Source: a virus. Taken from it: DNA of 40,644 bases. The stretch covers positions 1 to 40,644 of the IMG/VR virus record IMGVR_UViG_3300049846_002224; one strand, written 5' to 3'. The notes below the pieces were generated by a model. The model saw only the letters and a program-made list of their open reading frames with translations. It searched no databases and was not told where the DNA came from. The translations under genes and the position numbers were made by a program. Each line of letters opens with the position of its first letter. The first letter of the stretch is position 1. Of the stretch, positions 3,232-40,644 are shown piece after piece.

Positions 3232-3471
3232 TCAGTCCTTCATGATTTCGTAAAGCCTATCTAGAAACTCCTCGTTAAAATCTATATCGTCATCAAGTAA
3301 ATCCAAAGCGAAATCGCAAACATCATTGATCTGATCCAAGATAGTGGATCTCAGATTTGCAGCAACCCTATCTGGAAGATAGTGGTCACATTCTCTTTCC
3401 TTGTGTGACAAGATTATAGCTATAGCTCTGTCACGACGTTTCTTAAGAAACTCCTTATCCCTTGTATACAT
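3232..3471 (-). CDS. Small acidic protein of unknown function
   Basis: A 79-residue protein: a basic N-terminus (residues 1-25, many Lys and Arg) followed by an acidic C-terminal half (DLLDDDIDFNEEFLDRL). The ATG at 3471 follows a good AGGAG. It sits between the beta-helix fibre gene and the neck-like protein, separated by two bases from the latter, so the three are presumably co-translated. No family is recognised. The charge layout suggests a small adaptor or chaperone for its neighbours, but that is a guess. Confidence 0.6.
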   Translation of the reverse strand: MYTRDKEFLKKRRDRAIAIILSHKERECDHYLPDRVAANLRSTILDQINDVCDFALDLLDDDIDFNEEFLDRLYEIMKD

Positions 3472-3487
3472 AATTTCTCCTATATCC

Positions 3488-4621
3488 TTAAATTATTACT
3501 CCTGGTGATAATGCTCTACAGTTAGAAGGAAGGGTGGTCTTTGTTAACTCCAGAGAACCACCTTCCATGTTTACAGCAAAACCAGAAGTATTTGCTCCAG
3601 TAAAATTACATGAAATAAATCTACATACTGGATTACTTAGAGAAGTTGTTTTAAATCTTGATCCGTTCTTTGAAAGATCAAACTCACATTCAACTGCCTC
3701 TATGGTTCCAATAACGCCAGCAGAAGTAGCACTCCAAAAAGAATTATTACTCATTTTATTTCTAACAAATAATCTTTTGGCGTCAAAATCTCTAAGGTAA
3801 CCAATTCCCTGACTACCCTCCCAAACACAATCAATACAAACAACATCACCTTTAAAGTAAGATCCACCAGCAGTTGGTTCGCCAGACTCTTTGCATCTAA
3901 CAAGCGTTGTATCCGAACCTGAACCGGTCTGTATAAGCGAGCAACTAATTGCCTCTACTTCAATAAGGTCGTGATGGCCATATGACTGAGGGCTACCATT
4001 CAAATATATAACCCATCTATTCCAGTCATACCCCTTTACTCGCTCTGCTGTAAGGTGAAGATGTGGGTGAATATAAATACCAATTGAAGAATATTTAGAG
4101 TTCAAAGGTGCCCTAAGATTCGTATCTCTAAGTAATAGGTCACCCCATCCACCATGGCCTTCAAAGAAAGCAATACCACCAGTCCAACCACTAAGATCAG
4201 AATTGGTAATTCTAAACTTTCCACCACCAGAACGGCTAATACCATAGCTATAGCCGCCGGTTATTTTAATGTTGTCAAATATAGCGATGCTATCCCAAGT
4301 CTTATAGAGCTGATAAGAGATTCCACTATGTGTTGTCCCGTCATAAGTTGATAACCAACCTGTCGTATCTGGGCCGTTAATCGTGATATCTCTAATTTCT
4401 AGATAAGATCCGTTTGGCAATGTATCTGCGGTAATAAATGATCTTGTTGGATAACCCGTAATTGGTAAGTTAAAAATCGTATTGTTTCCCATAATCCGAA
4501 TGGATTTAGTTATTGTTAGTCCTGTGAAATCAGGACAATCGACTACCCCGCCAGGAAAAATACATAAACCATTTAAAGGTGTGTTATTGATTAAATTCTG
4601 TAATTCTTGTAAAGTTGCCAT
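3488..4621 (-). CDS. Fibre-associated right-handed beta-helix protein
   Basis: A 377-residue protein with the repeating short-strand pattern of the pectate-lyase fold (LTITKSIRIMG, LEIRDITINGPD, FDNIKITGG, FRITNSDLSGW, LLLRDTNLRA). Such proteins form trimeric spikes that bind or cut host surface polysaccharides. The start at 4621 (MATLQEL) is chosen because GGAAGG precedes it and it begins one base after the stop of the large fibre gene. The upstream in-frame start has no such support. No catalytic residues can be assigned by eye, so binding and depolymerisation are both possible. It probably works with the 1352-residue fibre encoded just before it. Confidence 0.65.
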   Translation of the reverse strand: MATLQELQNLINNTPLNGLCIFPGGVVDCPDFTGLTITKSIRIMGNNTIFNLPITGYPTRSFITADTLPNGSYLEIRDITINGPDTTGWLSTYDGTTHSGISYQLYKTWDSIAIFDNIKITGGYSYGISRSGGGKFRITNSDLSGWTGGIAFFEGHGGWGDLLLRDTNLRAPLNSKYSSIGIYIHPHLHLTAERVKGYDWNRWVIYLNGSPQSYGHHDLIEVEAISCSLIQTGSGSDTTLVRCKESGEPTAGGSYFKGDVVCIDCVWEGSQGIGYLRDFDAKRLFVRNKMSNNSFWSATSAGVIGTIEAVECEFDLSKNGSRFKTTSLSNPVCRFISCNFTGANTSGFAVNMEGGSLELTKTTLPSNCRALSPGVII

Positions 4622-4622
4622 A

Positions 4623-7600
4623 TTAAGCCTTCCATATCCAGAAACGAACAGCGTCATTAGCTAAGTTGACGCCCGCTGCCGTCAAACTTGAAGGAGCATT
4701 ACCGAGAGTAGTACCGGTACCAGAACTATCATAAAATGAAGATCTAAATCTAGCACTATTACTTACATCCGTTGGGAAACCCAAAGGCATTAATGGAAAA
4801 CCACTAACCCCATTTATGGAAGTAACGGTCGGTGTTGCGGTATAAGAATCGACTTGAATCTGCGCCCAATACCATCCAGCCGTAATAGACTGACTAATTG
4901 TAACGTCCCTTCGCCCTGCGGCACCAGACATGTCAAGTGTACCAAATTCATAAAGGACTGCAGCATTCGGCCAACCGTTAGCGTCAACAGAGTGCAATCC
5001 TATTCTCCATGTAGATGTGGCACCAGAAGTTACGTTCACCCCAGCTCTTGTATATGTATCTGTTGTCCCAATATAAATAGGAACAAAAGATCTTCTATTA
5101 GCTGCGGTCAACTGATGTGTTGTTGAAGCGGTACTAGTAGAACCTAAATTACTGAATCCAGAGTTAGAAGGAACAGTGCTTGTCATGATTAGCAACCCAG
5201 CACCAGTTGCTCCTGTAGAACCTTGTGCGCCAGTGTTTCCAGCGGGACCTGTGGCACCTTGTGTTCCCGCTGTACCAGTTGCTCCCTGTACGCCAGTTGC
5301 TCCCTGTGCTCCCGTAGCACCAGCCGGTCCTGTTGCACCAGGGATTACAGAATCTGCACCAGCGGGTCCTGTAGCACCAGTTGCGCCAGGAATAATCGAA
5401 TCAGCACCGGGCGCACCTGTTGCACCTTGCGCTCCAGTGGCACCGGTTGCTCCAACAGGGCCAGTTGCTCCACCTGCGCCGCCAGCAAGAAGATCAAGCC
5501 AACCGACGCCATAAACGTATTGACTAACGTGAGCAGATCCATCATTCCAATAAACCAAGATACCATCGTATCTTTGACCAGAAATAGCATTCCAATCACC
5601 AGCAGTAGATGGATCGTCAGCATCATTCACACCAATGTTATTTACAAGCAGACGAACTTGGGCGGCCTCTCCGAGCATAGCTGAACCAGCAACGTTATCA
5701 TTGTAAGAAATAATAGCACTGCTCTCGGAATCTTCAAGACTGATGCCGGTAACGTCAAGATTAGAGTCAGTTAGCGTTCCGTAGATACGAATAACACCCC
5801 AAGTATCCTGAATCATGTTAGCCGTATTGTGAGCAATCTGAAGATTAGACATACTACCAGCAAAAGAATAACCTGTCATCGTATCGATAATAGAGTTATA
5901 TCCAATAGAGACGAAATCAGATGAATCTACAGAAATACCAGTATCTTGTTTGACTGTTGCGGTTACTGCTCGGCCACCGCCCCGAATCGTATTACCAACA
6001 ATCTTTGCGCGATGACTGCCAGCAGAAATACCAATACCTGCGGAACTAGAATAATTTGGAGCAAGAGTAATTGTATTACCTGTAATTGTACAATCAACAG
6101 CATTTGTAGTTGTGCCGATACCCCCATTCCAGTTAATAATATTATTACCAACTGCCGTACCCTGCGCGGCCAAAAGAATAGCTTGTTGAGTAGTGTTACC
6201 ATCAGAACGTGAGCCACCAATAAATACGTTACCAACACATACCGTTCCAATATCTCCATAGATATCATTCAAAGGAGTTGAACCAGTTACAGCGCCGTCG
6301 TCGGAACCCTGACGTACATCAGACCCACCAATACCCATAGCACAGTTCTCAACACGGTTGCCGGTAAAGATTGTATTTTGAGCATGACGACACAAGAACA
6401 TTGCCATGTAAGTACAATCAGTAATTCTATTATTTATAATCTGAGCACCAGACGTACTAGACCCAACGTGAACACCGTGACGGCGTGAAGAATGGATATG
6501 TGAATTAGCAAATACATTCTCTGTAGGTGCGCCAATTTCGTTGTAGCCGGGAGAACGTGCCTGATCTGAATATGCATCACCAATAGCGTTTAGAATATGG
6601 ACGTCATTGACAAAGAAGTCCCAGCCATTCTCCCAATGGATTGTTGAGTTAGTAAAGTCAATGAGGGTAAGATCAGTTGGATCATTTGCTCCAGCATTAT
6701 GATCTAGAGTTAAATGCTCAACTCTAATCCCATTTGTGATGGGAGCTAGATCATTAGAGGGAGTAGCATTGTTCGTAACTAGAGGGAATTGAGTGCGAAT
6801 AACGCCACTGTAATATGGACTTACCAAATCTCTGTCAACAGTAATTGTAGCGGGATCTGCATCTACCGCTTCAGCCAGAGCAGTAATGATGGCGTGGGTT
6901 GAATTCCATTCATAATTTCCTACATCAGAAATACATACGGCATCTCCAACTTGAAAACCAGCAATCGTATCAACTGGAATAGTACGCTGTGTAATAGTTG
7001 CAACATCGCCAATGATGTCGGTGGCTACAGTGTCTGGTTTAGTAATGATTGAAGACTTACCTTGACCAATAAGTCTTGTATTGTTTGGTAATACAATAGG
7101 ACGACGGATAAAGTAAGCCTCTCCAGCAATAGCGGGAGCGGGAACCAAAATATCGCCGGGCAACAGCTCCGCAGCAGCACACGCTGCATCAAAAGCATCA
7201 GTACAATCCTCTCCAGCAACAGCGCCAAACTCGGGAGCGGTAATGTCATAAACACGGCCAGTTGGAATAAATGGTTCGTAATCAATTGGTTTATAAAGAT
7301 CACTAAGATCAACATCGCCATCTCGACCATCTACTGAGGTTACAGCATCACCGGGGATTGGCGTGCGATATAGATAGTTATTATCGGGATCAATACTACC
7401 ATCTACCTGAACCACAACAGCCTGATAGACGCTCTCAAATCCAGATTCGCCTAGCTTATTCAGAATAGTTACTGTATTTTGAGGCTTAGGTTGATTTGAA
7501 ATAACCGTAATTGTTTCGTTACTAGGATCAGCTCTCTTGATTTGGTTTGTACTATCCCAAATGTACTGAATACTAGTTACCCCGCCCCAGCCGAATAGAC

Positions 7601-8681
7601 CGATAATATCTTCCGCCGTAAAAGTTGGAAGATATGCATAAATTGTGTAATCAGTTGTTGCGGATGAATCAATCCAATCGTTTACATCCTTCTGTGACCA
7701 CTTATTGACTAAATTACCAGTACGATCCCAGTATGTTGAAACGCTGCTCTCCGTAACCCCACTAGGTTCAAAACGTGTCGCTGGATAGTTCTCATCAGAA
7801 ATACCGGGAGTTCCCTCTGTATCGCCCTGATCGTTACGGCCAAGCCAAACAGAACCCTGAAGGATACCCGCACCGCCACAAGAAATTGTGACAGGAGTGG
7901 AACCCATGAGTTCAACAGGAGTAAATCCATCCACCTCAACTAATGCATAAGTAGAAGGCCATTGTGTATCGGTACCAATAATCCAAAGAAGAACATGTTC
8001 CCCAACGCCCTCAGTATTTAGATCACTAAATGTCCAAGTATCTCCATATCCCCAGTTTTCAGGGATCGTAACTTGTTCCCAAATATTTGGAGATTCTGGA
8101 TCACCAACACGCTCTGGCATTCCAGGGTTATAGTAAATTGACTGAATGATGTCACCATTTGATGGACTCAAAGACGGAGTCATCAGAATTGCTGCAGCAG
8201 GATTAGAACCAACACCAGTTGAACCTGATCCACTAGAGTCAAAAATAACTCGCCACACACCAGCATAGTGTAATAGTTCAATTACAGAGGCTTGAGTAAC
8301 GGTAACTGAAGCAACAGAGTTGTTCGTAACATCAAACAACATGTCGGCCTCATTGGGAGTGATAGTAATAGATCCCGTATATGCACTAATAATAAAGCTT
8401 TGAGTAACATCACTATCAGCGTAAAGAGGAAGAGTTAAATCTCCACCGCCGCCTATAATACCATCTGTATAAGAAAGGGTATCAGTAGAGTCCATCGTGC
8501 GCTCTGCAGATAATGTTAAAGCCGAAACGGGACCAGTTGCACCCTGTGGACCCGTAGCCCCGGTAGCTCCGGCAGGGCCTGTAGCGCCATCTCGGCCTGG
8601 GTCACCTTTCTCTACGACAGTAATAACTTGAGGAGAATCAAGGTCACCTTCTTCTGTAATTGTTATAAACTCATCAGTCAT
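4623..8681 (-). CDS. Large fibre protein with collagen-like repeats and beta-helix domain
   Basis: A 1352-residue protein with a modular build. Residues about 24-52 are a collagen-like Gly-X-Thr/Pro segment. Residues about 480-990 begin with a typical pectate-lyase-type entry ([18 protein letters not shown]) and continue as beta-helix rungs. Residues about 1066-1158 are a second, longer collagen-like segment with GATGPAG-type triplets. The last 190 residues form a separate C-terminal, probably receptor-binding, domain. Collagen-like stretches in phage fibres make trimeric rod segments. The start overlaps the preceding gene by eight bases and follows AGAGGTGA. The gene lies between the tail terminator and the tail tube genes, an unusual place, so a head- or neck-attached fibre should be considered as well as a tail fibre. 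Confidence 0.85.
5208..5485 (-). repeat. Collagen-like triplet repeat, long segment
   Basis: About 93 codons of tandem Gly-X-Y triplets, mostly Gly-Ala-Thr and Gly-Pro-X, inside the large fibre gene. The 9-base periodicity is visible in the DNA and produces long artificial open frames on the opposite strand. It is a likely hot spot for length change by slippage or recombination. Confidence 0.9.
8526..8608 (-). repeat. Collagen-like triplet repeat, short N-terminal segment
   Basis: About nine Gly-X-Y triplets ([16 protein letters not shown] and following) near the N-terminus of the fibre. It resembles the long segment at 5208-5485 and could recombine with it. Confidence 0.85.
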
Positions 8682-9063
8682 TCAAAGTCACCTCTGGAGT
8701 TACAACAAAAGAACTTGGTTGCATAATAGTAGGAATATAAGGAGGATCATCAGCACTAAAAAGCTCAAGCTCCCAGAAGTAAGTATTAACAGGGAAAGTT
8801 GCCGTAACTTCTGAATCAATAGTGATAGAAACCCTATTATTATTGATGACGATTTCACCTGTCTCTGTAGACAGGGTAACGAGAACATCACTATCCCCTG
8901 GAGTTGAAGTCTCAGTAGGAATAGCTGTTCTAATTTCTATTCTGGCAGAATACTCTGAATAATCAATGGGATTCTCATACTTATCATTGAACTCAAAACC
9001 ATCACGATAAGTTTTACCCTGCTGGCAGAATCTTTTAAACTTTGGAGCTTTAGCTGTAGCCAT
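8674..9063 (-). CDS. Minor virion protein, baseplate/fibre-linked beta-sandwich
   Basis: A 129-residue protein with a pattern I recognise from small phage baseplate or fibre-base proteins of the BppU N-domain type: a start of the form [10 protein letters not shown], then [15 protein letters not shown], alternating strands, and a closing [12 protein letters not shown]. Such domains anchor receptor-binding proteins. The ATG at 9063 is preferred over a TTG four codons earlier; the ribosome binding site is weak (GGAT), and translation is probably coupled to the preceding gene whose stop is at 9066. Its end overlaps the large fibre start by eight bases, which supports a shared assembly. Confidence 0.5.
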
Positions 9064-9065
9064 AA

Positions 9066-9413
9066 TCAGATCCAATCTGGAGTATCAACAATGATATCAG
9101 CAACCCAAGAAGTAGGAGTAGCGGCATTAGGAACTGAGATGTAGTAAGTCACAGTGTTATTTGAAGCGTCTCTTTCTGTTACTTTGTATACAGAATCAGC
9201 AGGAGTTATCTCGTCGTTGGGAACAATCCCATCAACTTCCCATCTGCCATCTGCATCAGTCTCTGTCCCATATGTTCCACGAACCATAACTTCGTCTTCT
9301 TCAACTTTTGCCACAAGGCTAACTGAAGTATCCCAAAGAAGTTCAAGCGAAACGACAACACTAGCGTAAGGGTTGCCGGCGACCTTATCAATATTGTTAT
9401 AAACTGTAGCCAT
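9066..9413 (-). CDS. Small virion protein with carboxypeptidase-regulatory-like fold
   Basis: A 115-residue protein. The middle reads as a beta-sandwich with a pattern of the type TYGTETDADGRWEVDGIVPND, typical of carboxypeptidase-regulatory or Ig-like add-on domains in phage structural proteins. The ATG at 9413 follows GGAGAAGGGGG, one base after the stop of the tail terminator gene. It is tightly packed with the next two genes and presumably belongs to the fibre cassette. The domain assignment rests on pattern recognition only; the role as a spacer or adhesion domain is inferred. Confidence 0.45.
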   Translation of the reverse strand: MATVYNNIDKVAGNPYASVVVSLELLWDTSVSLVAKVEEDEVMVRGTYGTETDADGRWEVDGIVPNDEITPADSVYKVTERDASNNTVTYYISVPNAATPTSWVADIIVDTPDWI

Positions 9414-9414
9414 T

Positions 9415-9936
9415 TCAGCCCCCTTCTCCGAAGTAGGTATCGGACAGTTCAAATCCAATCACCCACCAATACTTATTAAACTGCTTATCCCATTCTCTTA
9501 CACGTTCCATTTGGATATTCTCAAGCTGACAAGTGAAGAGATAAGGTTCGCCGTCGGTCATGTAGTCATATACATCAAGTGTGGGACCAGTTCTACCTAT
9601 GCTCTCCATCTTACCAGAGATTACATCATATATATCGCCAGAAAGATGAATACCAGTACTCTCGTCCTCAGCGAAGATATCAATGTAGATAGACCACTTG
9701 TATTCCTCTAAATTAGAACCCATCTCGATGTTCCAAGATCTCAAATCCTCTGTAGAAATACCGATCTTATTAGGTTTGATCTCAGTCTGAGGATCGATCT
9801 GCTCTGCAACAAGAGTTACAGGAAACTTAGACAAAGTAAGACTACCATTGAACCAGCCTAAATCAGAAAGGCTGTCATATAGCATATTGTAGAAATTGTC
9901 CTTGATTATTCTTCTTCTTAAACCTCCAACAATCAT
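9415..9936 (-). CDS. Probable tail terminator / tail completion protein
   Basis: A 173-residue protein placed after two connector-like genes, as the tail terminator is in HK97-like modules. It contains the alternating pattern (EYKWSIYIDIFAEDESTGIHLSGDIYD) common in these proteins: a long strand, an acidic loop, then a helix carrying DIYDVISGK. The terminator protein caps the tail tube and joins it to the head. The ATG at 9936 follows AAGGAG. The next tail gene would normally be the tail tube, but here the fibre cassette intervenes. Confidence 0.5.
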   Translation of the reverse strand: MIVGGLRRRIIKDNFYNMLYDSLSDLGWFNGSLTLSKFPVTLVAEQIDPQTEIKPNKIGISTEDLRSWNIEMGSNLEEYKWSIYIDIFAEDESTGIHLSGDIYDVISGKMESIGRTGPTLDVYDYMTDGEPYLFTCQLENIQMERVREWDKQFNKYWWVIGFELSDTYFGEGG

Positions 9937-27070: not shown

Positions 27071-27844
27071 TTAGTATACACCAAGTGCTCGCTGCAAGTC
27101 TTCCAAACCTGAGTCGTAGACCTTCTTAATCTTCTGATCGCTTACCCCTAACATCTCAGCAATCTCCTTGAATTTCAGTTCTTCATAGAGATGTAGATAC
27201 ACGACAATGGACTGATGTTCACTCAAAGAAAACAGAGCTTTCTCAACTACAGAGCTGATTTCTTTATACTCTTGTTCGTACTCTACGCTTGAATCAGATT
27301 CATCTGGAAGAAGTTCTGAAAGAGAGAAGGACTCGTGAGTAGAATCGCTCATGTATTCATCAATATTCACAGGGAAAGACGCAAAGTAATTTGATCTAAT
27401 CTTATTAAGTTCATCCATATCAATACCGATACGATCAGCAATCTCAGTATCAGAAGGCTCTCGCTGAAGTTCCTCGAGAAGAAGACTCTCAGTCTGAGAG
27501 ATAAGCTTGAACTTCAGACGAGCATAACGAGAAACCCAATCGTAATCTCTTAGACGATCATTGATTTCGCCACGAATTCTAGTAGAAGCATAAGTCTCAA
27601 AAGTATAACCCTTAGACTCGTCAAACTTCTCCAAGGCGTCAACAAGACCAAAGAAACCATCGTTGATCAAATCTCCAACCTCAATCTGGGCGGGCAGTTT
27701 TGACTTGCTCTTCACAGCAATAATTTCAACAAGAGGAAGATAAGCTTCAAGCAAATCATTGTAAGCTTTCAAATCATCTCGGTTGTCACGATAGTTAGCC
27801 CAAAGCTCCTGTTTCTGTTCCTTGGATAGTTTCTTGAACTTCAT
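27071..27844 (-). CDS. Phage sigma factor, WhiG/FliA (sigma-28) family
   Basis: A 257-residue RNA polymerase sigma factor. Region 2 is seen as VGDLINDGFFGLVDALEKFD and YTFETYASTRIRGEINDRLRDYDWVSR, where the RIRG...LRxxDW string is the WhiG/FliA signature. Region 3 is the part around LQREPSDTEIADRIGI. Region 4 is the helix-turn-helix LKFKEIAEMLGVSDQKIKKVY. Region 1.1 is absent, as in this family. The protein directs polymerase to promoters with a GCCGATAA-like -10. The ATG at 27844 follows AAGGA, and the gene has a consensus host-type promoter at 27880-27908, so it should be expressed early. Confidence 0.93.
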   Translation of the reverse strand: MKFKKLSKEQKQELWANYRDNRDDLKAYNDLLEAYLPLVEIIAVKSKSKLPAQIEVGDLINDGFFGLVDALEKFDESKGYTFETYASTRIRGEINDRLRDYDWVSRYARLKFKLISQTESLLLEELQREPSDTEIADRIGIDMDELNKIRSNYFASFPVNIDEYMSDSTHESFSLSELLPDESDSSVEYEQEYKEISSVVEKALFSLSEHQSIVVYLHLYEELKFKEIAEMLGVSDQKIKKVYDSGLEDLQRALGVY

Positions 27845-27879
27845 TAAAATCCTTCTACTCAGCGAATTATGTATAAACC

Positions 27880-27908
27880 ATTATACAACAAATGTAAAGT
27901 CTTGTCAA
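27880..27908 (-). promoter_or_regulatory. Consensus sigma-70 promoter for the phage sigma factor gene
   Basis: The minus strand has TTGACA (27903-27908), a 17-base spacer, and TATAAT (27880-27885), a perfect match to the housekeeping consensus, 36 bases ahead of the sigma gene start. Confidence 0.85.
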
Positions 27909-27930
27909 ATTAGAAGATGTGTGATATACT
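27902..27930 (+). promoter_or_regulatory. Divergent sigma-70 promoter for the structured RNA / 28416 operon
   Basis: The plus strand has TTGTCA (27902-27907), a 17-base spacer and TATACT (27925-27930). Its -35 overlaps the -35 of the sigma gene promoter on the other strand by five bases, so the two promoters should compete for polymerase. Confidence 0.75.
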
Positions 27931-27948
27931 TTAAACCAAAGGTTTAAA
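27930..27948. promoter_or_regulatory. Operator-like palindrome TTTAAACC-AAA-GGTTTAAA
   Basis: A perfect eight-base-arm inverted repeat with a three-base centre, overlapping the last base of the rightward -10 element and covering the expected start of transcription. That is a classic repressor position. It could instead form a 5' hairpin of the transcript. Confidence 0.5.
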
Positions 27949-28400
27949 CGAAAGGACACACAAGGAAGCAAGATTTCCAGGCAATGCCTGATGACATCAA
28001 CAAGCAAGTAATTATTTCGGTGGGTCAACCCGATATCGATCCCTAGAAATAAAACATGCTCCCAACCGGAACTTCGTGCTGGCAAAACCCTCTTCAGGTT
28101 TTGTACTCAGAGAAGTCGACTGCGGTGTTGGGAGTTTTCTGAATAAGCTGAAGAGAGCGAATAAAGAAACAACTCTGCCGCAGAGGAGGCCGGTTACACT
28201 TCCGAAAAAAGTGGAGGGTTGTATCAAAAGAGATTTTGGTATGGGTCTTAATTACTTGTGCTACCGGAGGGCTCTCGACTAGAACAAACCGTAGACTGTT
28301 CTAGGTATATCTAATAAATAATATGTTAGATATATTAAGCTCCGGGCCTGCGGCCTCGCCTATCTAGGCGATTGGGAAAAACCATTAGCGTGCAAAAAAA
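27945..28400 (+). ncRNA. Candidate large structured non-coding RNA (or long structured leader)
   Basis: About 455 bases with no convincing gene on either strand. Perfect or near-perfect stems are dense: 27978-27990 (five pairs), 28012-28018 with 28046-28052 (seven), 28059-28066 with 28127-28134 (eight, enclosing the hairpin 28083-28103 with seven), 28173-28185 (five), 28197-28213 (five), 28279-28304 (eight), 28306-28334 (nine), 28345-28355 (four) and 28356-28371 (six). The strong promoter at 27902-27930 reads into it. No tmRNA, RNase P, tRNA or intron core is recognised. It may be an independent RNA or the 5' leader of the membrane protein at 28416. The 3' end is not determined. Confidence 0.55.
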
Positions 28401-28415
28401 TATGTCAGGAGACAA

Positions 28416-28721
28416 ATGTTACAACTCATCGGATGGATAGGTTCACTAACCGTAATAGGAAGTTATCTAATCTCAACAAAAAAGAACAATCCAAGTATCC
28501 TTCATTGGGGAAATGTTATTGGGGCTTGCATGCTCGTTCCGGTTCAGATATACTTGAATGTTACATTTGCCGCTTTTATATCTTTGAGTTTCGGATTGAT
28601 AGCAGCGTATGGTTTATACAAAACTAGGTCGTTAGATAATGTAACGACGGTCGTTTCGACAAAGGAGAGTAAATGTCAGAATACAAAGGCGTTGCAGAGT
28701 ACCCGAACAAACAGCTATTGA
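28416..28721 (+). CDS. Small membrane protein, three predicted membrane segments (CBU_0592-like)
   Basis: A 101-residue protein with hydrophobic segments at about residues 3-20, 30-48 and 50-68, then a polar tail. The opening LQLIGWIGSLTVIGSYLIST and the later GACMLVPVQIYLN resemble the CBU_0592 family of small bacterial membrane proteins of unknown function. The ATG at 28416 follows GTCAGGAGAC. It is the first gene after the structured RNA and overlaps the metallophosphoesterase by 49 bases. A second holin, or a superinfection-related membrane protein, is possible but unproven. Confidence 0.6.
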   Translation: MLQLIGWIGSLTVIGSYLISTKKNNPSILHWGNVIGACMLVPVQIYLNVTFAAFISLSFGLIAAYGLYKTRSLDNVTTVVSTKESKCQNTKALQSTRTNSY

Positions 28722-29842
28722 AGGAACTCTGGCAAAGCGGTTTACGACAGAAGGGAATCCTTGAATACTTGGAAGCAAACGATCTTCCTATGATTTCAGG
28801 AAAAGCCCTGGCTAAATATGGTCAAAGAAACTGGAATGAAAGAGAAGAAGTCGAGCAACATATCGACATGACAGAAAGCGACTCGATGAATGTCGTAAAA
28901 GAGACAATCGATGACATTGTCAGAAATAGAATTGGTGACGTTGAAAGAGTCTCTATCAGCAAAACAGGATTCAATATCAGCATCAAGCCTAGATCAAATG
29001 TAGAAGAAATCGATCTTCCAAAGGTTGGACCTAGAAAAGCTCCTAACTATTCTTTGGCTAAGAAATCTGATGTAAACTACCATGTGTTCATTCCAGATAC
29101 TCAGATCGAAGTTGGTAGACCTAACGATCATCTTCTATGGATCTCGCAATACTTGAAAGATAGATTCTCAGGTCAGCGTATAACTCTCGTTCATGCTGGT
29201 GACCATTGGAACATGGGTTCACTTTCCTCGTATGATCGTGGAACAGGAAAGATGGAAGGTCGCAGATACATTGCTGATATCCAAGCAGGAAACGAAGCAT
29301 TTGAAATCCTTGATTCTCAAATAGCTGACGAGCCTTGGGATAAGCACTTCCTTTTCGGCAACCATGAGGAACGAATCGCCAAAGCTGCTAACAGTAACAT
29401 TCAACTTGATGGCGTTTTGAGTTTGGATCATTGCATTACTCCGCCAACTTGGGATCGACACAAGTTCCTTGTTCCGGTAACTATAGATGGTGTGACTTAC
29501 GCTCATTACTTCTACAACCCAAATACGAGCAAGCCTTACGGTGGAATCGCGGATACACGTCTAAAGATCATTGGACATTCATTCGTAATGGGCCATCAGC
29601 AGGGTCTACAAATCGCTATGAGACACGTTAAAGGTCAACAGCAAGTAGGTATCGTGGCCGGTTCTTGCTACCAGCACAGCGAAGAATACGCAGGTCCACA
29701 AGGAAATGATCACTGGCAGGGGATTGTAGTTCTCGAGAATGTAGAGAATGGATCATTTGATCCTCATCCAGTATCTCTAGATCAGCTATGTAAAACATAC
29801 GAAGGACACAGCCTGAAAGATCATAAGCCAAAGATCCTTTGA
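28673..29842 (+). CDS. Metallophosphoesterase, calcineurin-like, with N-terminal DNA-binding-type region
   Basis: A 389-residue protein. The C-terminal two thirds carry the metallophosphoesterase motifs in order: IPDTQIE (Asp142, Gln144), HAGDHW (Gly-Asp 176-177), FGNHEE (Asn230, His231), and the late GHSFVMGHQQ. The family includes Mre11-type nucleases and phosphatases. Residues 10-60 (KQLLKELWQSGLRQKGILEYL and on) look like a helix-turn-helix, suggesting nucleic-acid binding. The ATG at 28673 follows AAAGGAG. A nuclease acting on phage or host DNA is the best guess. Confidence 0.8.
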   Translation: MSEYKGVAEYPNKQLLKELWQSGLRQKGILEYLEANDLPMISGKALAKYGQRNWNEREEVEQHIDMTESDSMNVVKETIDDIVRNRIGDVERVSISKTGFNISIKPRSNVEEIDLPKVGPRKAPNYSLAKKSDVNYHVFIPDTQIEVGRPNDHLLWISQYLKDRFSGQRITLVHAGDHWNMGSLSSYDRGTGKMEGRRYIADIQAGNEAFEILDSQIADEPWDKHFLFGNHEERIAKAANSNIQLDGVLSLDHCITPPTWDRHKFLVPVTIDGVTYAHYFYNPNTSKPYGGIADTRLKIIGHSFVMGHQQGLQIAMRHVKGQQQVGIVAGSCYQHSEEYAGPQGNDHWQGIVVLENVENGSFDPHPVSLDQLCKTYEGHSLKDHKPKIL

Positions 29843-32773: not shown

Positions 32774-33921
32774 AGCCCGCTTTACATGTCGTTGCACTTC
32801 CGCACACCCAAACAACCAAAGAATACACAGCGTGTGCATATACAATGAAACATCTACGATTCTGTACGATGATGAAAAGTCTAGGCTACGAAGTATATTC
32901 ATACGCTTCAGAAGAAAATGAAGCCGACGTTACAGAGCTGATCACAATTTATCCTAAGAGCGATCAGCTCAAATGGTTCGGAGATAATGATTTCCATACA
33001 AAGTTTTTCAACATAACATGGAATCCTAGCGATGAGCATTGGGTTGCTGGTAATGCTAGAGCATCTCAAGCTATTCGCAAAAGAATCAAACCAGGAGATA
33101 TTATTTGTCTTATCGCCGGTAGTTGCCAGCAAGCAATAGCTTTAGAATTTCCAAACAATCCCGTAGTTGAATACGGAATTGGATACAAAGGGACGTTCGC
33201 TGATTTCAGAGTATTTGAATCATATGCTCACATGCATTGGGTTTATGGAAACCAAGATTCTGATAATGGAATATTCTATGACGCTGTAATTCCAAACTAC
33301 TTTGATCCAGCAGATTTTAAGGTAGGGTATGAAAAAGATGATTACTATCTTTTCATTGGTAGACTGATTCAACGGAAAGGCGCAGAAATCGCGGTTGAAG
33401 CAACTAGAAGACTTGGCACTAAGCTCATTATGGCCGGTCAGGGAGTTGTTTCAAAAAGTGGCAATAAGATCATTGCAGAAGATGGTATGATATATGAAGG
33501 TGACCACATCGAACACATTGGACACGTTGGTGTCGAAGAACGAGCAGAATTAATGTCAAAAGCTAAAGCTGTATTTGTTCCAACAACCTATTTGGAACCA
33601 TTCGGCGGTGTATCAATTGAAGCAATGTTCTGTGGTACTCCGGTAATCGCAACGGACTTCGGAGCATTTCCCGAAAACGTTATTCATGGTCTATCAGGAT
33701 TTAGATTTAGAACAATTGGAGAAGCAACAAAGTTTGCAGAACTCTCCAACACTCTAGTTCCCTCTAGAATAGCCCTATATGCCCGTAAGAACTTCTCAAC
33801 AAGCGTAATCAAGTACAAGTACGACTCATATTTCCAGCAGCTTACAGACCTCTACAACGGTGGAGGGTTCTACTCTGACTGGTACCCAACAAGACTAGGA
33901 AGATATGGCAAGAGTTACTGA
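32770..33921 (+). CDS. Family 4-type (GT-B) glycosyltransferase
   Basis: A 383-residue enzyme of the GT4 pattern. The C-terminal half has DDYYLFIGRLIQRKGAEIAVEA, KLIMAGQGVV, and VFVPTTYLEPFGGVSIEAMFCGTPVIATDFGAFPENV, which is the nucleotide-sugar site with its E-x7-E. The ATG at 32770 is chosen because it overlaps the ThyX stop (ATGA); another ATG at 32746 is open but lies inside that gene. It may add sugar to DNA bases, to teichoic-type polymers or to virion proteins. Its tie to ThyX favours nucleic acid, but this is inference. Confidence 0.8.
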   Translation: MKPALHVVALPHTQTTKEYTACAYTMKHLRFCTMMKSLGYEVYSYASEENEADVTELITIYPKSDQLKWFGDNDFHTKFFNITWNPSDEHWVAGNARASQAIRKRIKPGDIICLIAGSCQQAIALEFPNNPVVEYGIGYKGTFADFRVFESYAHMHWVYGNQDSDNGIFYDAVIPNYFDPADFKVGYEKDDYYLFIGRLIQRKGAEIAVEATRRLGTKLIMAGQGVVSKSGNKIIAEDGMIYEGDHIEHIGHVGVEERAELMSKAKAVFVPTTYLEPFGGVSIEAMFCGTPVIATDFGAFPENVIHGLSGFRFRTIGEATKFAELSNTLVPSRIALYARKNFSTSVIKYKYDSYFQQLTDLYNGGGFYSDWYPTRLGRYGKSY

Positions 33922-38590: not shown

Positions 38591-38664
38591 CGGAAATTGT
38601 TCTAGTGGCAGGATCGGTGACTTGGACTCACCGGGCGTTGGTTCGATTCCAGCATTTCCGACCA
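38591..38664 (+). tRNA. tRNA-Pro (TGG)
   Basis: The acceptor stem CGGAAAT/ATTTCCG, T-arm with TTCGATT loop, and anticodon stem GGTGA/TCACC around the loop CTTGGAC give anticodon TGG. The CCA end is encoded. Confidence 0.9.
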
Positions 38665-38717
38665 TATGGCCCTCGTAAGCCTCTCTTCCTAGAAGATGCG
38701 TCTTGGGTCAGACTCTT

Positions 38718-38791
38718 TGGGAGGTAGTGTAGTGGCAACACGACTGACTCTGAATCAGTTATCGGAGGTTCGACCCCTCCCCACCCAGCCA
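38718..38791 (+). tRNA. tRNA-Gln (CTG)
   Basis: Acceptor TGGGAGG/CCACCCA (one A-A mismatch at the fifth pair), anticodon stem ACTGA/TCAGT around CTCTGAA, T-stem GGAGG/CCTCC, encoded CCA. The first pair U-A is typical for tRNA-Gln. Confidence 0.88.
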
Positions 38792-38816
38792 GATCTTTGA
38801 AAACAGAGAAATTCAA

Positions 38817-38892
38817 GCTTCCTTAGTATAATGGCTTATTATATCGGTTTTGTACTCCGAGGATGCGTGTTCGACTCACGCAGGAAGCTCCA
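38817..38892 (+). tRNA. tRNA-Thr (TGT)
   Basis: Acceptor GCTTCCT/AGGAAGC, anticodon loop TTTGTAC with TGT (last pair of the stem is T-T), T-arm GCGTG-TTCGACT-CACGC, encoded CCA. Confidence 0.85.
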
Positions 38893-38894
38893 AT

Positions 38895-38971
38895 GACGGT
38901 GACAAGCCTTGGTAGGCTATTCTGTCTCATAAGCAGAAGTATTGTTAGTTCGATTCTAACCACCGCCACCA
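38895..38971 (+). tRNA. tRNA-Met (CAT)
   Basis: Acceptor GACGGTG/CACCGCC with an A-C mismatch at the second pair, anticodon loop CTCATAA, T-arm GTTAG-TTCGATT-CTAAC, encoded CCA. It lacks the initiator features. An Ile-type CAT tRNA with modified C cannot be excluded. Confidence 0.82.
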
Positions 38972-38972
38972 T

Positions 38973-39051
38973 GTGAGTATGGTGTTTAATGGTATTAGCA
39001 TGACTGGCTTCCACCCAGTTGGTGAGGGTTCGAATCCCTCTACTCGCACCA
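38973..39051 (+). tRNA. tRNA-Gly (TCC)
   Basis: Acceptor GTGAGTA/TACTCGC, anticodon stem ACTGG/CCAGT around CTTCCAC, T-loop TTCGAAT, encoded CCA. Confidence 0.9.
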
Positions 39052-39052
39052 T

Positions 39053-39127
39053 TCCGATCTAGCACTCTAGGCGAGCGCGCTCGGCTGTTAACCGAGAATG
39101 AGCTTGGTTCGAATCCAAGGGTCGGAG
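39053..39127 (+). tRNA. tRNA-Asn (GTT)
   Basis: Acceptor TCCGATC/GGTCGGA, anticodon stem CTCGG/CCGAG around CTGTTAA, discriminator G. The CCA end is not encoded (GCAA follows). Confidence 0.9.
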
Positions 39128-39171
39128 CAAAAAAACTTTAACGGGAAGGTTGCTGGTATCCTGCCGAGACT

Positions 39172-39681
39172 TTAGAGCAATTCTGCTCTACGTCTTTTAA
39201 CAAAGTTTCTAACAGAATTATCAGATACACCAAGTTTTTTGGCAACCTGAACATAATTAGAATCTTTAAGCATAGCTTCAAGTTCTTCTAGGCTAGGCCA
39301 GTCAATTTTTCTCTGACTAACTCTAGAAGTAGGCTTAAAACAACAATCTGAACAATATTGATATCTTCTTTCAGAAAGAACTTTGTCACAAGTAAGACAA
39401 GTTGCTTTAGGTTTGCGAAGTTTTCTGCCGGCAAAAGTCTCGGTCTGACTATGACAGTTAGGACAAAGTAGTTCTAAATTCTCTAAACGATTGTCATCAG
39501 GAATTCCATTCTTATGTTCTAATTGTAATACTAATCTCTTATTGTTCCAATAAGGCTCAATATTACAAGAAGCACATATTTCAGGTAGAATACCTTCAGC
39601 TATAAGTCTTATTCTAAGCTTAGAGCGATTATAAGTAGAGTTTTCTACAAGAATTTCACTTAAAGGAATTGCAGTTTTCAT
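39172..39681 (-). CDS. HNH homing endonuclease
   Basis: A 169-residue protein on the strand opposite to the tRNA genes. It has two Cys pairs flanking an HNH core (CASCN, then LEHKNGIPDDNRLENLELLCPNCHSQT), a second zinc ribbon (CLTCDKVLSERRYQYCSDC) and a C-terminal helix-turn-helix (QVAKKLGVSDNSVRNFVKRR). That is the usual build of phage HNH homing enzymes. The ATG at 39681 follows GGAGG at five bases; another ATG four codons earlier lacks a site. It has its own putative promoter at 39705-39721. Confidence 0.85.
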   Translation of the reverse strand: MKTAIPLSEILVENSTYNRSKLRIRLIAEGILPEICASCNIEPYWNNKRLVLQLEHKNGIPDDNRLENLELLCPNCHSQTETFAGRKLRKPKATCLTCDKVLSERRYQYCSDCCFKPTSRVSQRKIDWPSLEELEAMLKDSNYVQVAKKLGVSDNSVRNFVKRRRAELL

Positions 39682-39704
39682 TCGAACCTCCATAATATGT
39701 GTTA

Positions 39705-39721
39705 CCTATTATATATCGGCA
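39705..39721 (-). promoter_or_regulatory. Putative phage sigma promoter (HNH endonuclease)
   Basis: Minus-strand TGCCGATATATAATAGG, 24-40 bases before the HNH start at 39681. GCCGATAT is exactly the SigD-type version of the sigma-28 -10. Confidence 0.55.
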
Positions 39722-39734
39722 AGGTTCGACTTAT

Positions 39735-39808
39735 TCGGAGGAACGGTGCTGGTTCCGTAGCTAGACTTTGAATCTAGTGTGTCGAGGGTTCGATTCCTTC
39801 TCTCCGAG
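39735..39808 (+). tRNA. tRNA-Gln (TTG)
   Basis: Acceptor TCGGAGG/TCTCCGA, anticodon stem CTAGA/TCTAG around CTTTGAA, T-loop TTCGATT, discriminator G, no encoded CCA. Confidence 0.9.
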
Positions 39809-39811
39809 CAA

Positions 39812-39860
39812 TAACGAGTGAGGAATCTCGACCACCTAGGTTCGATTCCTAGCCCGTTAG
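39812..39860 (+). pseudogene. Truncated tRNA: acceptor and T-arm only (minihelix)
   Basis: The acceptor stem TAACGAG/CCCGTTA (one A-C mismatch) and T-arm CTAGG-TTCGATT-CCTAG are intact, but only 17 bases lie between them, too few for D and anticodon arms. Those bases can form a small GAG/CTC hairpin. It looks like a tRNA that lost its middle by deletion. Confidence 0.75.
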
Positions 39861-39865
39861 CTCAA

Positions 39866-39941
39866 GGTCTTGTCATATAATGGCTATTATGCAGGCTTGT
39901 CACGCCTGTCATGGAGGGTTCAATTCCCCCCAAGACCGCCA
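39866..39941 (+). tRNA. tRNA-Asp (GTC)
   Basis: Acceptor GGTCTTG/CAAGACC, anticodon stem CAGGC/GCCTG around TTGTCAC, T-loop TTCAATT, encoded CCA. Confidence 0.9.
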
Positions 39942-39942
39942 T

Positions 39943-40016
39943 ACCTCTGTGGCCAAGTGGATTAAAGGCAACGGGCTACGAACCCGTGATCGCATGTTCG
40001 AATCATGCCAGGGGTA
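39943..40016 (+). tRNA. tRNA-Arg (ACG)
   Basis: Acceptor ACCTCTG/CAGGGGT, anticodon stem ACGGG/CCCGT around CTACGAA, T-arm GCATG-TTCGAAT-CATGC. It needs A-to-I editing by the host enzyme to read all its codons. CCA is not encoded. Confidence 0.88.
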
Positions 40017-40144
40017 CGATTAAGTTAAGATCAACCGCAGCTGTGACGGTGTAAGCCGGTAAATTCTAGAAGAGATTAATTTAATTAGGCGACACCTGCC
40101 TCGCGAAAGTGGTGTGACTTTAACCCTAGGAGAGTAAAGGGCCT
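40017..40144. other. 128-base gap in the tRNA cluster without a recognised gene
   Basis: No tRNA or open frame is seen here. Short stems are possible, for example ACCG (40034-40037) with CGGT (40047-40050), and ACACC with GGTGT around 40092-40115. It may be a degenerate RNA gene or a processing spacer. Confidence 0.35.
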
Positions 40145-40219
40145 GGAGGATTCGCCAAGATGGTCTAAGGCACCTGCTTTACACGCAGGCATTCGGGAGT
40201 TCGAATCTCTCATCCTCTA
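40145..40219 (+). tRNA. tRNA-Val (TAC)
   Basis: Acceptor GGAGGAT/ATCCTCT with a G-T first pair, anticodon stem CCTGC/GCAGG around TTTACAC, T-loop TTCGAAT. No encoded CCA. Confidence 0.88.
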
Positions 40220-40221
40220 CT

Positions 40222-40416
40222 ATGAACAGTAACAGCGGTAAAATGAGAAACAGAATAAAAACAAGAGTCCCATGCACTTGTTGTAATGATGACTCAAACA
40301 AAGGTAGAGTAACAGAAAACCGTCTGGTTCAGAAAGAAATACAAGAAGAATTAAATGAATATATGGGGTGCCATGTTCCAAGGCTGGCGAGTCTCCCTTG
40401 CACGGAGACTGTGTAG
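40222..40416 (+). CDS. Doubtful small open frame between tRNA genes
   Basis: A possible 64-residue basic protein with a CTCC cysteine cluster near residue 18. It begins three bases after tRNA-Val, has no clear ribosome binding site, and its last 52 bases overlap tRNA-Ala. The part before the tRNA has codon content like a real gene, so a small protein is conceivable, but chance is equally likely. Confidence 0.25.
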   Translation: MNSNSGKMRNRIKTRVPCTCCNDDSNKGRVTENRLVQKEIQEELNEYMGCHVPRLASLPCTETV

Positions 40417-40438
40417 AGTTCGATTCTCTAGTGCTCCA
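40365..40438 (+). tRNA. tRNA-Ala (TGC)
   Basis: Acceptor GGGGTGC/GTGCTCC with several G-T pairs, anticodon stem TCTCC/GGAGA around CTTGCAC, T-arm TAGAG-TTCGATT-CTCTA. The end reads ACA, not CCA. Confidence 0.85.
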
Positions 40439-40497
40439 CAATGAGGAAAGCCACTCAGAAAAATATTAGGCTTGACAGCGGGAGAGGTTCCGCCCCT

Positions 40498-40570
40498 GGT
40501 TTTGAAGCTGAAATGGTACAAGCACCCGATTGAAGCTCGGGGGACGTAGGTTCGATTCCTACCGAAACCA
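40498..40570 (+). tRNA. tRNA-Phe (GAA)
   Basis: Acceptor GGTTTTG/CGAAACC, anticodon stem CCCGA/TCGGG around TTGAAGC, T-arm GTAGG-TTCGATT-CCTAC. The cluster probably goes on beyond the window. Confidence 0.9.
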
Positions 40571-40644
40571 CAACTAAAAATGAGAGCGGGAAGTACAACC
40601 GTAACTCGTTAGCGTACCTTTATCGGGGAATCGGTAATGACGGT

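Follow-up and report, generated by a model that had tools for sequence, protein, structure and literature searches.

Does the gap between a phage sigma factor gene and a nearby metallophosphoesterase gene hold a structured RNA and, if so, does this RNA act on its own, serve the genes that follow it or belong to a family that has already been described? We address this question for a virus fragment of 40,644 bases from IMG/VR, here called the window, to which all coordinates refer, and in which an initial annotation had proposed a candidate novel structured RNA behind a strong promoter. To our knowledge, few large non-coding RNAs of phages are known, and for none of the large ones is the function settled. 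The ribonucleotide reductase of the window is closest to those of the actinobacterial phages Gaia (Mycobacterium phage, 49%) and DSL-LC01 (Actinomycetia phage, 49%) and, for this reason, the host of the window phage is likely to be actinobacterial.

The gap, 27845-28415, has the divergent sigma gene on one side and the co-directional genes for a membrane protein and the metallophosphoesterase on the other, which agrees with the initial annotation in placing the region beside the sigma gene and reading toward a small membrane protein. The features of the locus are as follows.

27071-27844, minus strand: sigma-70 family sigma factor, regions 2, 3 and 4, from Sigma70 domain matches
27880-27908, minus strand: divergent promoter of the sigma gene, TTGACA-17-TATAAT, 12 of 12 matches
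27902-27930, plus strand: sigma-70-type promoter of the window RNA, TTGTCA-17-TATACT with TG before the -10, 10 of 12 matches
27930-27948, no strand: perfect 8-3-8 dyad, TTTAAACC AAA GGTTTAAA, spanning the -10 and start site, candidate operator
27937-28403, plus strand: candidate structured non-coding RNA (the window RNA) with putative ends, from its non-coding character, promoter, fold and stems
28416-28721, plus strand: small membrane-type protein of 101 amino acids with an AGGAG Shine-Dalgarno sequence
28673-29842, plus strand: metallophosphoesterase, from a protein family match

For the membrane protein, neither a family match nor, by pattern search, a relative was found; on inspection by eye, one further contig, L004, encodes a look-alike (IGYAASIWVLLTYG...HWANAVGG).

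The gap does not code for protein. Only two stretches of the window longer than 350 nt lack an open reading frame of at least 80 amino acids, namely 27845-28415 and the tRNA cluster. The small reading frames of the gap (68, 71 and 72 amino acids) have codon log-odds of -0.11 to -0.31; real genes have a median of 0.40 and spurious reading frames one of -0.24, and by this score the three are non-coding. None of the starts scanned in the gap is preceded by a Shine-Dalgarno sequence, that at 28416 excepted. A protein-coding gap, examined through PHROGs and Pfam searches of its reading frames together with the codon scores and the Shine-Dalgarno scan, was rejected, and the absence of a plausible gene noted earlier is borne out. 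The tRNA cluster (38591-40571) comprises 12 genes found by ARAGORN (Pro, Gln (two), Thr, Met, Gly, Asn, Asp, Arg, Val, Ala and Phe) and contains what looks by eye to be an HNH-type reading frame (39172-39693, minus strand).

Within the gap, a search for stems and a predicted fold reveal the following elements, all on the plus strand.

28012-28052: stem TTATTTC/GAAATAA, 7 bp (stem search)
28059-28134: stem CTCCCAAC/GTTGGGAG, 8 bp, enclosing the hairpin at 28083-28103 (stem search)
28083-28103: hairpin CAAAACC-CUCUUCA-GGUUUUG, 7 bp (stem search)
28090-28155: pseudoknot of CTCTTCAG (28090-28097) with CTGAAGAG (28148-28155), 8 bp, crossing the 28059/28134 stem
28169-28225: stem ACAAC/GUUGU enclosing the hairpins CUCUGC/GCAGAG and CACUU/AAGUG (predicted fold)
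28264-28345: stem CCGGAG/CTCCGG enclosing two long hairpins, 28279-28304 (8 bp) and 28306-28334 (9 bp) (stem search)
28356-28371: hairpin TCGCCT/AGGCGA close to the 3' end, with no T run after it (stem search)

The 8-bp stem 28059-28066/28127-28134 surrounds the 7-bp hairpin exactly as first listed, and the pseudoknot, a perfect pairing by the loop of that same hairpin, is an addition to the earlier list. Perfect Watson-Crick stems of at least 8 bp number five in the gap against a mean of 0.6 in shuffled sequence, a count reached by none of 200 shuffles, and those of at least 7 bp number seven against 2.1 (reached in 1 of 200). Stems of 5 and 6 bp, however, show no excess, their counts being reached by 45 and 20 of the 200 shuffles. 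The fold energy of the plus strand lies at a z-score of -3.39 (0 of 100 shuffles) and the gap thus folds beyond what its composition provides. Among 84 equal tiles of the window it ranks third, and some coding stretches fold equally well. Tile 32801-33000, which had appeared as a strong fold with a z-score of -6 from 20 shuffles, was set aside after 200 shuffles gave -3.4; it is intragenic.

The minus strand (z-score -3.27) folds as well as the plus strand, and the assignment to the plus strand is made from the promoter and from G-U pairs. The promoter, described earlier as strong, is indeed a good one and stands back-to-back with that of the sigma gene. The perfect dyad at 27930-27948 had been counted among the RNA stems; this we correct, because the dyad straddles the expected start site and is more likely a DNA operator, a role suggested by its position. 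Taken thus far, the initial observation is confirmed and it is likely that the gap gives rise to an RNA that is transcribed and folded; what we say beyond this we infer.

Is this RNA a known one? The covariance-model search proposed by the initial annotation was run against Rfam 15 and found nothing in the gap at the gathering score, with tRNAs the only matches in the window, and ARAGORN found no tmRNA in the window. That the initial annotation recognised none of tmRNA, RNase P, group I intron, GOLLD or ROOL by conserved core agrees with this result. In a permissive scan the nearest score in the gap was that of the Type-P1 twister (RF03160) at 28166-28222, with 21.6 bits and an E-value of 0.051. 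The window RNA is like the twister in this sub-threshold match and unlike it in falling short of the gathering score of 67.2 bits, and the candidate was rejected, with three modelled pairs mismatched and the CCC missing from the pseudoknot (T2) loop. GOLLD and ROOL are phage-associated RNAs larger than the window RNA, which differs from them in its smaller size and in being without an Rfam match. They have been described as large, ornate structured RNAs whose role is unknown (PMC12286853), and the window RNA resembles them as a large structured non-coding RNA without an assigned role (PMC12286853).

The best support for the window RNA, though indirect, comes from sister phages. The sigma protein of the window has two full-length relatives in IMG/VR, on contigs L002 (62% identity) and L003 (56%); the sigma factors found in the genome contigs searched were only distant ones. 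In both sisters, the sigma and metallophosphoesterase genes again border a stretch free of genes, 635 and 514 nt long respectively, and the two gaps are 63% identical over 306 nt (E-value 1e-15). On the sigma-coding strand, all 40 of 40 cells of the RNA in these gaps are paired and both partners have changed in 10 of its 20 pairs, a result matched by 0 of 500 shuffles and set against 0-3 in slid controls. The slot in L002 and L003 therefore holds a covarying structured RNA gene. It is preceded by a TTGACA-17-TATACT promoter of its own and the sigma gene downstream of it is served by a separate, second promoter, and for these reasons the sisters' RNA is not simply a leader. The TATACT -10 element and the 17-nt spacer are common to the RNA promoters of the window, L002 and L003. 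The orientations are opposed, with the window RNA pointing away from the sigma gene and that of the sisters pointing at it. By eye, apparent intein-like inserts are present in two reading frames of L002, those of the metallophosphoesterase (3464-5347, 627 amino acids) and of the ribonucleotide reductase (6812-9643, 943 amino acids).

These observations bear on two other accounts of the gap. The window RNA might be a 480-nt 5' leader of the membrane-protein and metallophosphoesterase operon, which by sensing or by protein binding would control in cis the translation or transcription of the genes at 28416 and 28673. Such a leader would fit an RNA that is co-directional with both genes and has an AGGAG site directly behind it, with no terminator seen between it and the 28416 reading frame. 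It would not fit the sisters, in which the RNA is inverted, is not upstream of the metallophosphoesterase and is followed by a separate promoter for the sigma gene; nor is an alternative terminator/anti-terminator pair evident in the window RNA, and we consider a leader unlikely, though a possibility to be kept in mind. We think it rather improbable, too, that the gap holds no functional RNA and is only an untranslated spacer in which an operator region and the remains of inverted repeats are found. A fold z-score only third among the tiles, short stems that are not in excess and the absence of sequence conservation in the sisters are all as such relics would have it, yet the five long stems, the promoter and the covarying RNA that both sisters carry in the same gap argue against them.

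The sisters' RNA leads in turn to a known family. L002 and L003 share a conserved block, GTAANGGCAGACCTGG, with which we scanned IMG/VR before a covariance search using R1, one of two models (R1 and R2) of the sisters' RNA. A third member, L134, scores 35.9 bits and comes from a GC-rich phage with no detectable relative of the sigma gene. The RNAs of L002, L003 and L134 each form 12 nested pairs (9 + 3) and a CCAG/CUGG pseudoknot. Both partners have changed in 10 pairs, with 14 changed cells; the pairs of the pseudoknot never vary and leave it unproven. Because the exact core motif was used to fetch the members, a conserved core carries no independent weight, whereas the conserved flanking stems and the A and C blocks do.

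L002:5492-5850, L003:5518-5870 and L134:2950-3056 (minus): RNAs with apparently permuted EGFOA blocks, below the Rfam cut-off

These three RNAs share with EGFOA (RF02955) the CCAGA and CCGUCCU blocks as well as the nested stems with a GUAANG..AGACCUGG loop. In each, nested outer and inner stems surround the EGFOA core loop. They differ from EGFOA in the position of the CCGUCCU block, which lies downstream of the nested stems and in EGFOA lies upstream. Their order is CCAGA - stems - CCGYCCU (C-B-A), with CCAGA directly before the stems, and the EGFOA order CCAGA - CCGUCCU - stems (C-A-B) is found in none of the three. The downstream position of this block explains why the Rfam model aligns to them over positions 71-95 only and below the cut-off, the sole reported match in each contig. 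The same scan recovered EGFOA proper, in L136 (56.9 bits), L097 (53.6) and L105 (42.9; cut-off 37.7). EGFOA-type RNAs are thus present in various viral contigs, and include L137 and L108 just under the cut-off and L117, L103 and L125 recognised by motif; wherever an EGFOA match has a recognisable CCGUCCU block, this lies upstream of the stems. L169:6999-7067, cut by the end of its contig, may be a fourth permuted RNA. A literature search on the EGFOA family found no paper.

The change from C-A-B to C-B-A is apparently a non-circular permutation of EGFOA rather than a circular shift. Non-circular permutation in a natural RNA was described in a 2023 paper only for hammerhead ribozymes (PMC10085705), with which L002, L003 and L134 have in common a block order that is no circular shift of the known one (PMC10085705). 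Hammerhead ribozymes self-cleave (PMC10085705), whereas no cleavage is known for the three RNAs; the comparison concerns these three rather than the window RNA.

Relatives of the window RNA itself were sought widely. None was found by blastn in 50,697 phage records (at E-values up to 1e-5 and up to 10), in plasmids, in the full sister contigs or by nhmmer in all the loci fetched. Among the 2.9 million viral contigs of IMG/VR, a scan with one 15-mer of the window RNA gave 29 matches with no similarity beyond it. The sole match recurring in DSL-LC01 and Gaia, AACGAAAGGACACAC, sits immediately upstream of an annotated DSL-LC01 gene start and was discarded as an apparent ribosome-binding site. Local alignment with the sister RNA gave p = 0.10 for L002 and p = 0.98 for L003.

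That the window RNA might be a highly diverged EGFOA-like RNA, its core loop lost or altered, was weighed with the models of the sisters' RNA and of EGFOA. Neither R1 nor R2 has a convincing match in the window: the best for R1 reaches 3.5 bits (E-value 0.19), and R2 scores highest, over all of the window, at 28301-28350 on the plus strand, inside the gap and thus in the same slot, with 12.8 bits (E-value 0.33 for the window as search space and 0.0047 for the gap). This alignment leaves out 31 model positions, the invariant GUAANGGCAGACCUGG loop among them, and is built on an AU-rich hairpin with short flanks, and the C block that it uses (CUAG) sits in an 8-bp stem of the predicted fold. We treat the match as a lead and not as evidence of EGFOA membership. 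The EGFOA model finds nothing in the window RNA at E-values up to 10, the core loop GUAANGNNAGACCUGG is absent from the gap even at three mismatches and the three EGFOA blocks are not recognisable, such that a diverged EGFOA seems very unlikely.

The reading that we favour, with moderate confidence, is of a stand-alone structured phage RNA of ~450 nt, transcribed by the host-type sigma-70 machinery, in a slot kept for such an RNA. The gene-free gap, the long stems, the fold energy, the promoter and the covarying RNA in the same slot of L002 and L003 are our reasons for it. Against it stand the absence of a sequence relative among viral contigs, phages, plasmids and sister contigs, and with it of direct support from covariation, the opposite orientation of the sisters' RNA, the unconvincing results of R1 and R2, the lack of a terminator ahead of the downstream reading frame and the coding tiles that fold as strongly. 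In this stand-alone scheme, the host-type sigma-70 RNA polymerase would transcribe the plus strand from 27902-27930 into an RNA of ~450 nt, and these phages would keep the slot between the sigma and metallophosphoesterase genes for structured RNA. Made in quantity, the window RNA would act by itself as a scaffold or by binding a protein of the host or of the phage, and read-through may reach the genes downstream. We infer that it has the same function as the RNA of the sisters, that it is transcribed and that it acts in trans. Of the original description as a candidate novel structured RNA, the candidate structured RNA and its place outside Rfam are supported, through the non-coding gap, the unusual fold, the promoter and the absence of an Rfam match at the gathering score; 'novel' is partly qualified, as the RNA of the sister phages is related to the known EGFOA family.

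More tentatively still, and with low confidence, the slot may host interchangeable large RNAs, a permuted EGFOA in the sisters and, in the window, a different or extremely rebuilt architecture that does the same job. The sisters' RNA, if the permutation is true, would be the first non-circular permutation outside the hammerhead ribozymes, judged against the 2023 paper (PMC10085705), and its rearranged blocks would narrow down the parts of EGFOA that matter to its three blocks together with a single nested stem and a likely CCAG/CUGG pseudoknot. In these phages, the slot is a defined one, beside the phage sigma factor and with a strong promoter of its own, and probably houses a folded RNA each time although the sequence of that RNA is entirely replaced.
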